Source: Hymenobacter nivis (GTDB lineage Bacteria; Bacteroidota; Bacteroidia; Cytophagales; Hymenobacteraceae). From it: 64,000 nt of DNA. The translations under genes and the position numbers were made by a program. Within the stretch, counting starts at the first letter, position 1. Each line of letters begins with the position of its first letter. Positions 54,310 through 59,205 of the stretch are shown here, one piece after another. Location: contig NZ_RCYZ01000001.1 in NCBI RefSeq assembly GCF_006439025.1, positions 806,001-870,000 on the forward strand. The letters are read 5' to 3'. The notes under the pieces were generated by a model that did no database searches, was not told where the DNA came from, and was given only the letters and a program-made list of their open reading frames with translations.

Positions 54310-54895
54310 TGAGTTGTTAAAAAATAAAAAGTAAACAGATGTAAGCGGTGAGTATAGCAGTGGTTGTTAGCTTATGAACGCTTGGATGGGCAGCGGCCGG
54401 AGCAAGCCCGCGGCGCCCCCCGAGCGGGGAATGGGGGCAGTGGCCGAACTTTGCGCGGCACCTAACCACCCGTCACACCGGACGGGGCCAGCGTATTGGT
54501 TGGTTGCCCAGCCCGGCGCAGGGGCCCCAGGAGTTGGCACGGGCGTAAAAGGCCACATCAATAGAGAGTATGAAAGCAGGATAAGCAATGCTGCCGTGGC
54601 AGTCGATGGCGCAAAAGTATCCCGGGGCCCCGGGGGCTTGCGTGACCGCCGTTACCCAAACCGGTGAGAATTATCACCCGCCCGGCTGATGGCTGTTATA
54701 GGCCACCACGCGGCAAGAGAAAGCCTCCGTCGGCGCAGGTGCAGCCGCACCCCAGGGCCCCACCAATTAATAATCAAAGTATTATATACCAATGCTTTGA
54801 AAATAAAACAAGGTTGCTCCGGCTATTGCCCGGCACCGGGGTTGCCGCTATCGCTGCGCAGGGGCCCTGCCCCACAAACACTCCTTCTACCCGCT
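54310..54895. other. Gene-free stretch before the receiver-CRP gene
   Basis: About 586 bases separate the roadblock gene from the regulator. A short AT-rich patch lies at about 54766-54815 and would suit a promoter, but no -33/-7 pair with correct spacing is seen. Short frames here (for example 54374-54667) have no family resemblance. I find no gene. Confidence 0.4.
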
Positions 54896-55951
54896 ATGAA
54901 AACCATTCTTTTAATCGACGGCGACGACGCTGCCCGCCAAAGCACGGCCGAGCTGCTGGTGCTGGCCGGCTACGCCGTGAGCACGGCCGGCAACGGCAAA
55001 ACCGGGGTCGAGCAGGCCCGCACCGCCCGCCCCGACCTGGTGCTCTGCGCCATCGACCTGGACCTACTCGATGGCTACGGGGTGCTCTACAGCTTCCGGC
55101 AAAATGCCCGGCTGGCGGGCACGCCCTTTATCTTCCTCACGGCCCGGGCGGCGCGGGCCGATGTGCGCCGCGGCATGGAGCTCGGAGCCGACGACTATCT
55201 TACCAAACCCTTCGTAAACAGCGAGTTGCTGGGGGCCATTGCCGGGCGCCTCGCCCGCTTTCAGCACCTGCACCCCGACGAGGAGGCCCCCGCTGCCAGC
55301 AGTGCGCCGGCCGAATTTGTGGCCTCGCAGCGCAGCAACCTACTCACCCTCGTGGCCGACCGCAAACCCCACCCGGTGCCGCGCCGCCAGATTGTGTACG
55401 CTGAAGGCGACGAGCCAGCGCGGCTCTACTTCGTGCAGGCCGGCCGGGTTAAAATTGTGAAAACCACTGCTTCCGGCAAAGAGCTAATCACAGGCTTCTA
55501 CCAGGCGGGCGAGTTTTTTGGCTACAAAGCCCTGCTCGAAGGCACCGTGTACCACGATGCGGCCGTGGCCGTCGAAGACTCGACGCTGTTCTACATTCCG
55601 GCCGACGACTTTGCGCAGCTGCTGCGCAACCCCGAGGTGAGCCAGCAGCTGGTGCGCCTGCTGGCCGGCCGCAAGCGCGAGCGCGAAGACCAGCTGCTCG
55701 ACATGGCCTACAACTCGCTGCGCCGCCGCGTGGCCAATGCCCTGCTCGGTTTCTACGACCACGCCCGGCCCGACGAAGCGGCCGGCGCGCTCATCCAACT
55801 CTCGCGCGACGACCTAGCCGCTGTGGTCGGCATTGCGCCCGAGTCGCTGAGCCGCACGCTCAGTGAGTTTCGGCACGATGGCTTATTGGAAGTTACGCCC
55901 AAGGGAATCAAGCTTTTGCAGCCTGATAAACTCCGACGGACCGACTGGTAG
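54896..55951 (+). CDS. CRP/FNR-type regulator with an N-terminal degenerate receiver domain
   Basis: ATG 54896 gives 351 residues. Residues 1-118 are a receiver fold (MKTILLIDGDDAARQSTAEL, D8-D11 acidic pocket, T82 in FLTARAARAD, K104 in DDYLTKPF). The phosphoacceptor position reads A52 in PDLVLCAIDLDLLDGYGVL instead of Asp. Residues 150-260 are a cNMP-binding beta-roll (IVYAEGDEPARLYFVQAGRV, AGEFFGYKALLEG). Residues 275-345 are a CRP-type HTH (LSRDDLAAVVGIAPESLSRT). By family it should bind DNA as a dimer. It is convergent with the blh-rhodopsin pair, 10 bases from the blh stop. Control of those genes is conjecture. Confidence 0.88.
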   Translation: MKTILLIDGDDAARQSTAELLVLAGYAVSTAGNGKTGVEQARTARPDLVLCAIDLDLLDGYGVLYSFRQNARLAGTPFIFLTARAARADVRRGMELGADDYLTKPFVNSELLGAIAGRLARFQHLHPDEEAPAASSAPAEFVASQRSNLLTLVADRKPHPVPRRQIVYAEGDEPARLYFVQAGRVKIVKTTASGKELITGFYQAGEFFGYKALLEGTVYHDAAVAVEDSTLFYIPADDFAQLLRNPEVSQQLVRLLAGRKREREDQLLDMAYNSLRRRVANALLGFYDHARPDEAAGALIQLSRDDLAAVVGIAPESLSRTLSEFRHDGLLEVTPKGIKLLQPDKLRRTDW

Positions 55952-55961
55952 CGGCTAGCGG

Positions 55962-56969
55962 CTAGCCGACGGCACGCCGCCAACGGGCAGCGTCGAGGCC
56001 CAGCGTCACGAGCAGCGCGTGGGGCAGCGTCACGACGGAGGCCACGAGCAGCGCCAAGCTGATGAGCGCCGGGCCGCCCGCCGCCCGCGCCCACTCCCAG
56101 CCGTAGAGGGCGGCCAACGCGGCCACGCTCACCAGCAATAGCGGGGCCGAGCGCCGCAAAAAGAAGCCCAGCTGGGGCCCCAGCGCCCCCCAGCTGCCGG
56201 CAAAGGGCCGGCCCATCAGGGCATTCATGCGCAGCACGTGCTGCAAGCTGTGCCAAAACACAAAGTACACGCCCGCCGACAGCACCGGCGGCAGCACCAC
56301 CAGTAATCCGCTGAGCAGCAGCACTTCCAGCACATCGGTACGGGCCAGCCGGTGCTGGCTGGTGAGCCAGTAGCTGGCCCAGAGCAGCGCGTGGCCGGCC
56401 AGCACCAGGGGCCCCAGCCAACGCGCGGCCGCGCCCACGGCCGCCGCGCCCACCGGGGCAGCCCCGGCCAGTGCGAGCAGGTCGTTGGTGAGGGTGCGCG
56501 TTTCGGTGGGCCAAAACCAGAGCGGCACCACGAAGATGAGGCCGCCGCGCAACAGGCTGTGGGCCAGCCACTGCGCCCGGTAGCGGGCCGCCGCCGGCGC
56601 ATCGCCCGACCCCCAGTGCCAAGCTGAGAGCCCGAAGAAAAACGCCACGGCCAGTGCCGGCCGCCACCACCACAGCAGCCCCACCGCCGCCGCCAGCGCC
56701 AGGTAGCCGCCCAAAAACACCGCCCAGTACCGCCCCGGGCGGCGGGCCAGCGCCGGGTGGGTAGCCGGCACCACGTACTGGTCGCAGGCGCCGTGGGCCA
56801 CGCCCAGCAGCACCAGGCCCAGCAGCAGCGCGGGCCCCAGCAACCAGCCGGCCCAGCCGGGCAGCAGCCAGCCCACGGCCGTGGCCGCCAGCACCACCCC
56901 GTAGGAGTAGCGCTGGGGCCCCGCCGTGGGCTGGCGCAAGTAGCTGCCCGTCAGGCTAGGCCGTGGCAT
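55962..56969 (-). CDS. blh: Beta-carotene 15,15'-dioxygenase (Brp/Blh family)
   Basis: The 335-residue polytopic membrane protein carries the Brp/Blh His motifs: GVAHGACDQYV, FGLSAWHWGSGD, VYFVFWHSLQHVLRM and TLPHALLVTLG, which bind the catalytic iron. It cleaves beta-carotene to two retinal molecules in the membrane. It overlaps the rhodopsin gene's end by 14 bases, so the two form an operon giving both opsin and chromophore. The carotenoid source is not in the window, though pigmentation is usual in this group. Confidence 0.93.
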   Translation of the reverse strand: MPRPSLTGSYLRQPTAGPQRYSYGVVLAATAVGWLLPGWAGWLLGPALLLGLVLLGVAHGACDQYVVPATHPALARRPGRYWAVFLGGYLALAAAVGLLWWWRPALAVAFFFGLSAWHWGSGDAPAAARYRAQWLAHSLLRGGLIFVVPLWFWPTETRTLTNDLLALAGAAPVGAAAVGAAARWLGPLVLAGHALLWASYWLTSQHRLARTDVLEVLLLSGLLVVLPPVLSAGVYFVFWHSLQHVLRMNALMGRPFAGSWGALGPQLGFFLRRSAPLLLVSVAALAALYGWEWARAAGGPALISLALLVASVVTLPHALLVTLGLDAARWRRAVG

Positions 56970-57792
56970 AGCCGTCGAGCACTTTCTGCTCGTCGAGGCG
57001 CTCGTCGAGCAGGCGCTTGCCCACCAGGTAGGCCACCACCGATATGCCTACTTTATTGAAGACGTCGAAAATGCTGAAGGCGATGTGGATGTAGTTCAGG
57101 TCGATGCTCGTCATGGTGAGCATGTAGCCCAGCGGGTACACGCCCCAGGTAGTCACGGTGGTGATGCCGATGAACTTGAAGCCCCAGCGCTCGATGTCAT
57201 TGCCGCGCGCCGCAAACTTCTTGTACAGCCCGTAGAGGGCCACCACGGCCACCACGTAGCCCACCGTCGAGATGGCACCCCACAGCAGCTTGCCGCCGAC
57301 GATGATTTCGCCCGTCGCCGTCAGCTGTTGCTCGCCGATGTAGCCGGTGAGTACCATCAGGAAATCGGCTACCAGCATCACTGTGATGGCCGTGGCGGCC
57401 TCGCTGTAGCGGATGCGCAGCATGGAGGCCGCCTTGAGTAGCAGCAGCGGCGTGGTCACGGCCCAGTCCATGTAGCGGTACTGGCCGATGGCCTGGTAAC
57501 TATGCCGGACGAGGGCGGCCCGCGCCTCGGGCGACTCTAAGTGGCTGAGGTCTTGCAGCATGCCGTGGTAGAAGCGCGTGATGAGCAGGTACGACACCCC
57601 CGCCACAATGGCAATAACCCCGCCGTAGGCCCGTGAAATGCGGTGCTCGGGGGCCACACTCTGGTTGGTGAGGATGCTGAAAAACACGTTGCCCAAAAAG
57701 CAATACGCCGCAATGGTCATGAAGAAATACGTCAGCATCGGCACGATGCCCACCTCCCCAGCGGTAGGGACGAATTCAGTAGCGAAGGTCAT
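56956..57792 (-). CDS. Microbial rhodopsin with DTK motif, predicted proton pump
   Basis: The 278-residue seven-helix protein has a Schiff-base lysine K247 in FDVFNKVG, with the counterion-partner D243 four residues before it. Helix C reads YRYMDWAVTTPLLLLK: D109 (primary acceptor), T113 and K120 at the proton-donor position, giving DTK rather than the usual DTE. L117, at the position that tunes colour in proteorhodopsin, is the green-absorbing form. H76 (RFYHGM) matches the His that pairs with the acceptor Asp. In the known DTK pump of Exiguobacterium the lysine acts as proton donor. It would export protons at the inner membrane in light. Confidence 0.93.
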   Translation of the reverse strand: MTFATEFVPTAGEVGIVPMLTYFFMTIAAYCFLGNVFFSILTNQSVAPEHRISRAYGGVIAIVAGVSYLLITRFYHGMLQDLSHLESPEARAALVRHSYQAIGQYRYMDWAVTTPLLLLKAASMLRIRYSEAATAITVMLVADFLMVLTGYIGEQQLTATGEIIVGGKLLWGAISTVGYVVAVVALYGLYKKFAARGNDIERWGFKFIGITTVTTWGVYPLGYMLTMTSIDLNYIHIAFSIFDVFNKVGISVVAYLVGKRLLDERLDEQKVLDGYATA

Positions 57793-59114: not shown

Positions 59115-59205
59115 GTAGGGTAGCTTAGGCTACAAAAAAACGGTCATGCTCAGCCGGCAGACGCTAGCTGAGCATGACCGTTTTTTGTAGTCTAAGCTGC
59201 CCTAC
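59115..59205. terminator. Long imperfect hairpin between the DUF4136 gene and uraD remnant
   Basis: Arms of about 40 bases (59115-59154 and 59167-59205) pair with two mismatches and one indel over a 12-base loop. Runs of A and T and the core CGGTCATGCTCAGC are included. The right arm reaches into the last codon of the DUF4136 gene. The core belongs to the family seen at 24735 and 48730. Confidence 0.7.

Follow-up and report, generated by a model that had tools for sequence, protein, structure and literature searches.

Does the opsin gene that overlaps a retinal-forming dioxygenase gene in Hymenobacter nivis encode an outward proton pump, with a lysine acting as the proton donor? The gene pair lies in a 64,000-nt stretch of contig NZ_RCYZ01000001.1 (the whole stretch analyzed, hereafter the window):

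56956..57792, – strand: rhodopsin with the DTK motif, 278 aa, ATG start, a seven-helix type 1 opsin (ORF, Pfam, AlphaFold2 model)
55962..56969, – strand: blh, beta-carotene 15,15'-dioxygenase family (Brp/Blh), retinal-forming, 335 aa (Pfam PF15461, NCBIfam TIGR03753)
56956..56969, – strand: overlap of the opsin end and the blh start, 14 bases (ORF coordinates)

The original prediction of a two-gene cassette with a 14-base overlap agrees with these coordinates and with the family matches. The window opsin matches the Pfam Bac_rhodopsin family at 4.2e-25 (89 bits, with the cut-off of 24.6), and its NCBIfam scan yields no family match; the downstream ORF matches Pfam BCD (PF15461) at 9.5e-47 and NCBIfam blh_monoox (TIGR03753) with 147 bits, above the curated cut-off of 95.25. 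Seven long helices in the structural model and a Schiff-base lysine in helix G, K247, identify the protein as a type 1 rhodopsin, and it is the only PF01036 rhodopsin in this genome. The overlapping arrangement is conserved in Hymenobacter, while the exact overlap length is variable: an in-frame ATG giving an overlap of 14 or 20 bases was read by eye at nine of the ten other Hymenobacter loci with an adjoining blh. These nine include locus L032, where blh is broken, and at L037 blh begins downstream of the opsin gene.

Residues were assigned in MAFFT alignments built under three settings with Exiguobacterium sibiricum rhodopsin (ESR), xanthorhodopsin (XR), Gloeobacter rhodopsin (GR), actinorhodopsin (9hfk), GPR, Med12 PR, bacteriorhodopsin (BR), ClR, and others, yielding the following codons:

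57592..57594, – strand: S67, position of the PR/XR/ESR counterion histidine (three alignment settings)
57466..57468, – strand: D109, proton acceptor/counterion position, BR D85, GPR D97 (alignment)
57454..57456, – strand: T113, BR T89, GPR T101 (alignment)
57442..57444, – strand: L117, color-tuning position, GPR L105 (alignment)
57433..57435, – strand: K120, proton-donor position, BR D96, ESR K96, GPR E108 (alignment)
57277..57279, – strand: G172, fenestration glycine position, XR G156, possible carotenoid antenna site (alignment)
57064..57066, – strand: D243, second counterion position, BR D212 (alignment)
57052..57054, – strand: K247, retinal Schiff-base lysine, BR K216 (alignment)

The previously proposed D109, T113, and K120 are recovered under all three settings and, with D243, complete the residue set of outward H+ pumps (DTx); R106 aligns with BR Arg82. 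The counterion histidine is absent from all 52 aligned rows of the clade described below, the window opsin having Ser67, and glycine occupies the XR G156 fenestration position in 51 of these 52 rows, G172 included. Blue-tuned PRs carry Gln at the color-tuning site. Leu117 fits the green absorption earlier predicted from it, but the same residue occurs in XR and BR, so that it argues only against the blue-tuned Gln and gives a weak hint of green color.

ESR (PDB 4hyj) is the top sequence match of the window opsin among solved structures (60 bits, fold Z 25.5) and shares with it the DTK motif, a Thr that follows the T89 position, and Asp at the position of BR D115. The parallel with ESR drawn in the original prediction thus holds for the lysine at the donor position, but not for the counterion partner, as His57, paired with the counterion in ESR, is replaced by Ser67; moreover, the fenestration position is Ser in ESR and Gly in the window opsin, and identity over the fold is only about 23%. 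Both ESR and its relative E17R carry His together with Lys, according to passages in PMC4871484 and PMC8387761. Xanthorhodopsin and Gloeobacter rhodopsin are similar to the window opsin in Asp, Thr, the fenestration Gly, the fold, and the score (58 bits), but have a Glu donor and the counterion His, neither of which is found here. Like the window opsin, bacteriorhodopsin has no His where PR has H75 (its residue there is Met) and has Asp at the D115 position; unlike it, BR uses a donor Asp, and the columns of its proton-release residues Glu194 and Glu204 are occupied by Thr and Ile in the window opsin.

The AlphaFold2 model, based on a 12-row alignment, has mean pLDDT 80.5, pTM 0.78, and seven long helices. 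In the fold comparison, ESR, xanthorhodopsins (psXR, Kin4B8), HeimdallR1, and CryoR are tied at Z of about 25–26, and the chains of ESR, xanthorhodopsin-type proteins, CryoR, HeimdallR1, ClR, and KR2 fall between 24.4 and 26.5 among the 50 matches listed, identity to the solved pumps listed being about 17–26%. As the values are alike for all of them, the fold indicates a pump-like rhodopsin and allows no finer choice.

Relatives of the window opsin form a distinct clade. With a profile built from the first 12 relatives, 54 distinct members score 223–521 bits, and other rhodopsins collected do not exceed 114 bits; fragments (L055, L056, L143, L144, and the second piece of L115) were dropped before counting, and the near-duplicates L035 and L040 were left out of trees and the residue alignment only. 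The clade is present in 18 of 120 Hymenobacter genomes and in 31 of 222 genomes of the Spirosoma family (the family of G452), where it is confined to two of 36 genera, one of which, g33, is taken to be Spirosoma since G599 shares contig coordinates with the named Spirosoma metagenome-assembled genome (MAG) L041. Among 395 genomes sampled from Bacteroidota at large, just three have a member, all from the order of the window and one of them the genome of the window itself. A single Verrucomicrobia MAG carries a clade opsin (one of 286 genomes of its class): the profile picks out eight of the 286 at E 1e-20, and only this MAG falls in the clade range (423.7 bits, the next one 107.6). No relative has been found in viral contigs. 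The ORF is kept in eleven named relatives (nine Hymenobacter, one Spirosoma, one Verrucomicrobia) with identity from 93% down to 41%.

Forty-one of the 54 members bear the Schiff-base lysine and have the motifs DTK (26 members), DTQ (7), DTT (3), ETN (2), STT (2), and DTH (1). Distinct Hymenobacter clade opsins are almost uniformly DTK (16 of 18), the other two being STT. The ORF conservation, this uniformity, and NG86 dN/dS of 0.07–0.10 among five Hymenobacter DTK–blh copies (10 pairs) show that the DTK observation is not due to chance. Lysine donors are a described minority exemplified by ESR, according to parts of PMC8387761, and in this respect the lysine is uncommon, as had been suggested; still, DTK, which is listed among outward proton-pump motifs in a section of PMC10154332, is no one-off in this clade, being its commonest and probably its original motif. 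On the other hand, the donor position can change within the clade (DTQ, DTT, DTH, ETN, STT), which makes the motif by itself poor evidence for pumping, and the replacement of K120 in 28 of 54 members means that many of them perform their function, whatever it is, without this donor. As reported in the same parts of PMC8387761, Lys can serve as the donor in the PR scaffold (PR-E108K), and a Lys introduced into Asp-type deltarhodopsin is no donor; given the latter, the donor role does not follow from a Lys in this position.

Some other copies deserve mention. In three genomes (G593, G598, G261), a second clade copy of the DTT type (L111, L112, L113) is present alongside a DTK copy elsewhere in the genome. 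A separate PR-family group from Hymenobacter (L133–L140) has donor-less DTQ or ETQ motifs, and all eight rows carry Ser or Asn in place of the counterion His. The Hymenobacter STT pair (L059:2889-3722(-) in G087 and L060:2891-3724(-) in G114) keeps the Schiff-base lysine, and its helix C, SWSITTPIMLLT, is similar to the halorhodopsin row TWALSTPMILL in a table of PMC5877348; with K247 and D243 kept, a natural guess is that these two are candidate anion pumps. An intact blh in G114 adjoins the DTE opsin of this genome, and in G087, where the STT protein is the sole rhodopsin, the sole blh match (L155:897-2024(+)) has one in-frame stop.

Returning to the window, its residues, gene order, and relatives suggest that the opsin is probably an outward light-driven H+ pump with a lysine donor, which obtains its retinal through the overlapping blh. 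In this reading, the Blh enzyme would produce retinal by cleavage of beta-carotene, and the retinal would bind K247; light would isomerize the retinal, and the Schiff-base proton would move to D109 and further to the outside, while K120, neutral in the dark, would pick up a cytoplasmic proton and pass it to the Schiff base. The lysine donor would operate as in ESR, minus the Asp–His counterion pair; as this pair is absent, D109 would have to be tuned otherwise. The fenestration glycine could let a carotenoid sit beside the retinal, and perhaps the window opsin has such an antenna. Counted for pumping are the presence of all pump positions, the blh overlap, strong purifying selection, the fold, PR-E108K, and the SH-aLRT support of 100 for the clade; counted against it are the missing counterion His, the variable donor, the deltarhodopsin Lys, low identity to solved pumps, two Hymenobacter genomes without retinal enzymes, and the missing lycopene cyclase match (see below for the latter two).

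Absence of the counterion His and variability of the donor position in the clade would also fit a light sensor or slow photoreceptor that binds retinal and pumps little. Its possible output could be the product of the response-regulator/CRP-family gene at 54869–55951 (+), which is convergent with blh, ends 10 bases from the blh end, and combines a response-regulator receiver, a cNMP-binding domain, and a Crp helix-turn-helix in one protein. Among 35 loci compared (32 distinct clade opsins, flanks of approximately 3–4 kb, phmmer E 1e-8), this regulator occurs only in the window's own genome, and it has been dropped as a part of the cassette for this reason. As, moreover, DTK rows retain the full set of D, T, K, and D, and no known transducer family is seen among the scanned neighbors, we consider a sensory role unlikely.

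Retinal for the pump proposed here could come from the adjacent gene. Of the 18 Hymenobacter clade opsins, 11 have an adjoining blh, as do 11 of the 12 opsins in the immediate subclade of the window opsin, one of these blh copies being broken in either count; no blh has been observed beside clade opsins of the Spirosoma family within the flanks examined. The broken copy (L032:4683-5873, Hymenobacter coccineus, G018) is split over several frames beside a DTK opsin, and a second blh match is found elsewhere in that genome. A full PF15461 domain (4e-47; L042:2909-3769(-), approximate coordinates) is divergent from the clade opsin of Verrucomicrobia; hence, the opsin–blh pairing occurs in two phyla. 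The genome of the window also encodes an RPE65-family carotenoid oxygenase (L159:2626-4209(-), contig G000:C12), a second possible retinal source, yet, as the window opsin is the sole PF01036 rhodopsin there, it is most likely the one served by blh. Both blh and an RPE65-type oxygenase are missing from G019 and G105, two Hymenobacter genomes that carry a DTK copy. Lycopene cyclase PF18916, the only cyclase family searched, has no match in the window's genome, and carotenoid hydroxylase PF04116 has three; no carotenoid cluster was recognized by eye in ORFs around two of these three.

The remaining 13 of 54 members, all from Spirosoma (L077, L082, L090–L098, L114, L115), lack the Schiff-base lysine, with Cys, Leu, Ile, Val, or Gln at its site, and have no acid at the position of D109; their motifs are ATQ (4), GTH (3), GTQ (2), ATL (2), STQ (1), and AIQ (1), and L114 has Ile at the T89 position as well. 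R106 and D243 are invariant in all 54 members. Of the 41 lysine-bearing opsins, 39 have an acid at position 109, the two exceptions being the STT pair, vs. none of the 13 lysine-less ones, and the helix-F proline 220 is missing in all 13 and in one lysine-bearing member. As a control, all 58 other rhodopsins collected retain the lysine. In a tree of 52 rows from which the four motif columns had been excluded, at least three changes are counted for the lysine, at least four for the D109 acid, and at least five for K120, the direction of these changes being inferred; lysine loss is paired with counterion loss in only three independent phylogenetic pairs (sign test p 0.25).

Pairwise dN/dS was estimated for chosen close pairs only. 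The NG86 values are 0.07 for the STT pair, 0.05–0.08 for the DTT trio, 0.13 for ETN, and 0.25–0.34 for three DTQ rows. For lysine-less opsins, seven pairs from eight of the 13 members give 0.09–0.22 (0.14–0.34 by YN00), so that those tested are under purifying selection, looser than in the DTK opsins.

Both PF15461 and PF03055 are absent from 12 of 13 genomes with a lysine-less opsin, and in 11 of 13 such an opsin is the sole PF01036 rhodopsin, without blh and RPE65; the exceptions are G601, which has both enzymes and a second rhodopsin, and G399, which has a second, DTK, copy. Out of 17 Spirosoma-family genomes with lysine-bearing clade opsins only (G599 lying outside these searches), nine have one enzyme and eight have neither. 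The difference, nine of 17 vs. one of 13, corresponds to Fisher p 0.017 with shared ancestry ignored. In the eight enzyme-less genomes, retinal may be scavenged or produced by another enzyme, or the opsin may work without it.

The absence of the lysine from 13 of 54 clade members, conservation of the eight such opsins tested, and these eight enzyme-less genomes raise the possibility that the window opsin, too, does without retinal in part or altogether and is retained as a membrane protein for a different reason, which appears to be the case for its Spirosoma relatives. We regard this as very improbable, since the window opsin has the lysine, blh overlaps its gene, and blh adjoins nearly all opsins of its immediate subclade.

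The position of the clade was assessed in several trees; the sampling contained no sensory rhodopsins, and the NTQ set consisted of one ClR. In the 79-row tree, the clade has the SH-aLRT support mentioned above, and its stem measures 1.5 changes per column. When BR and xenorhodopsins are among the rows, the clade lies outside the PR/XR/NaR/ClR/ESR assemblage with support 85, the program warning of long branches meeting there; with these rows left out (39 rows, 16 of the 52 clade rows among them), ESR is sister to the clade (80/56). Neither constraining ESR with the clade (AU p 0.138) nor constraining the clade with XR/GR (AU p 0.09) is rejected, and in the best trees the clade is outside XR. 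The phylogeny suggested with the original prediction thus places the clade apart from the sampled PR, XR, NaR/ClR, and xenorhodopsin branches, and neither demonstrates nor rejects the sisterhood with ESR. An independent invention of the lysine donor, separate from ESR, was considered and not adopted, as trees with and without the outgroup disagree.

The least probable alternative is transport of another cation, sodium, besides or instead of protons: the clade stands apart from the proton-pumping PR/XR families, so that relatives give no function, but it has no NDQ motif, carries Asp and Thr at positions 85/89 as in H+ pumps, and falls outside the sampled NaR/ClR branch (support 100).

Loss of the retinal lysine with persistence of the opsin links the Spirosoma relatives to Rh-noK, freshwater FArhodopsins, and haloarchaeal and fungal ORPs (portions of PMC10308929, PMC7714340, and PMC4915679), and lysine-less opsins are not rare, numbering about 600 of 5,558 known microbial rhodopsin genes in the part of PMC7714340 that gives this count. 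However, in the portions of these papers that describe them, betaproteobacterial Rh-noK is in tandem with a working pump, and genomes with marine FArhodopsins also have proteorhodopsin; unlike them, the lysine-less opsin of Spirosoma is mostly the sole rhodopsin, and hence in 11 of 13 genomes there is no companion found to explain its retention.

Viewed as a natural series, the clade would have had a DTK ancestor, with pump residues changed or lost repeatedly in other lineages. Tentatively, and with less confidence than for the pump itself, we propose that DTK opsins pump H+ via a lysine donor without the Asp–His pair; that the Hymenobacter STT pair might be an independently evolved light-driven anion pump; and that Spirosoma could have lost the donor, and then the acceptor and the retinal lysine, leading to conserved retinal-free opsins functioning via the retained R106–D243 in cells seemingly unable to make retinal. 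If this is true, a lysine donor without the counterion His separates two features studied jointly in ESR, and such separation would tell which of them is required for the reversed order of proton uptake. The Spirosoma opsins and their close lysine-bearing sisters provide a bacterial set for ordering the loss of the lysine, the counterion, and retinal-forming genes, and the STT pair, a direct test of how readily proton pumps are converted into anion pumps in nature.

Neither a lysine donor, as in ESR, nor a lysine-less opsin, as in Rh-noK, FArhodopsin relatives, and ORPs, is new in itself. In the literature searched, with most subscription papers outside its reach, we have found no published description of this clade; what seems new is a lysine-donor group without the counterion His and a sister lineage that has repeatedly lost the retinal lysine, mostly without a companion rhodopsin. 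Rhodopsins have been described in these genera: sections of the respective papers mention an NDQ rhodopsin of Spirosoma oryzae (PMC7979833), a rhodopsin gene of S. linguale, with the type not given there (PMC5877348), and a Hymenobacter xenorhodopsin (PMC3198991), and the reference list of PMC12227055 cites a 2024 paper on a Hymenobacter nivis proteorhodopsin.

Finally, the promoter scan upstream of the opsin gene yields one sigma-70-like match vs. 0.5 expected, in a scan that does not cover Bacteroidota promoters. Farther along, nested inverted repeats are observed at 59115–59205, with perfect 20-base arms (59135–59154/59167–59186) within outer 25-base arms of 92% identity; they are edged by A and T runs and possibly form a bidirectional terminator.
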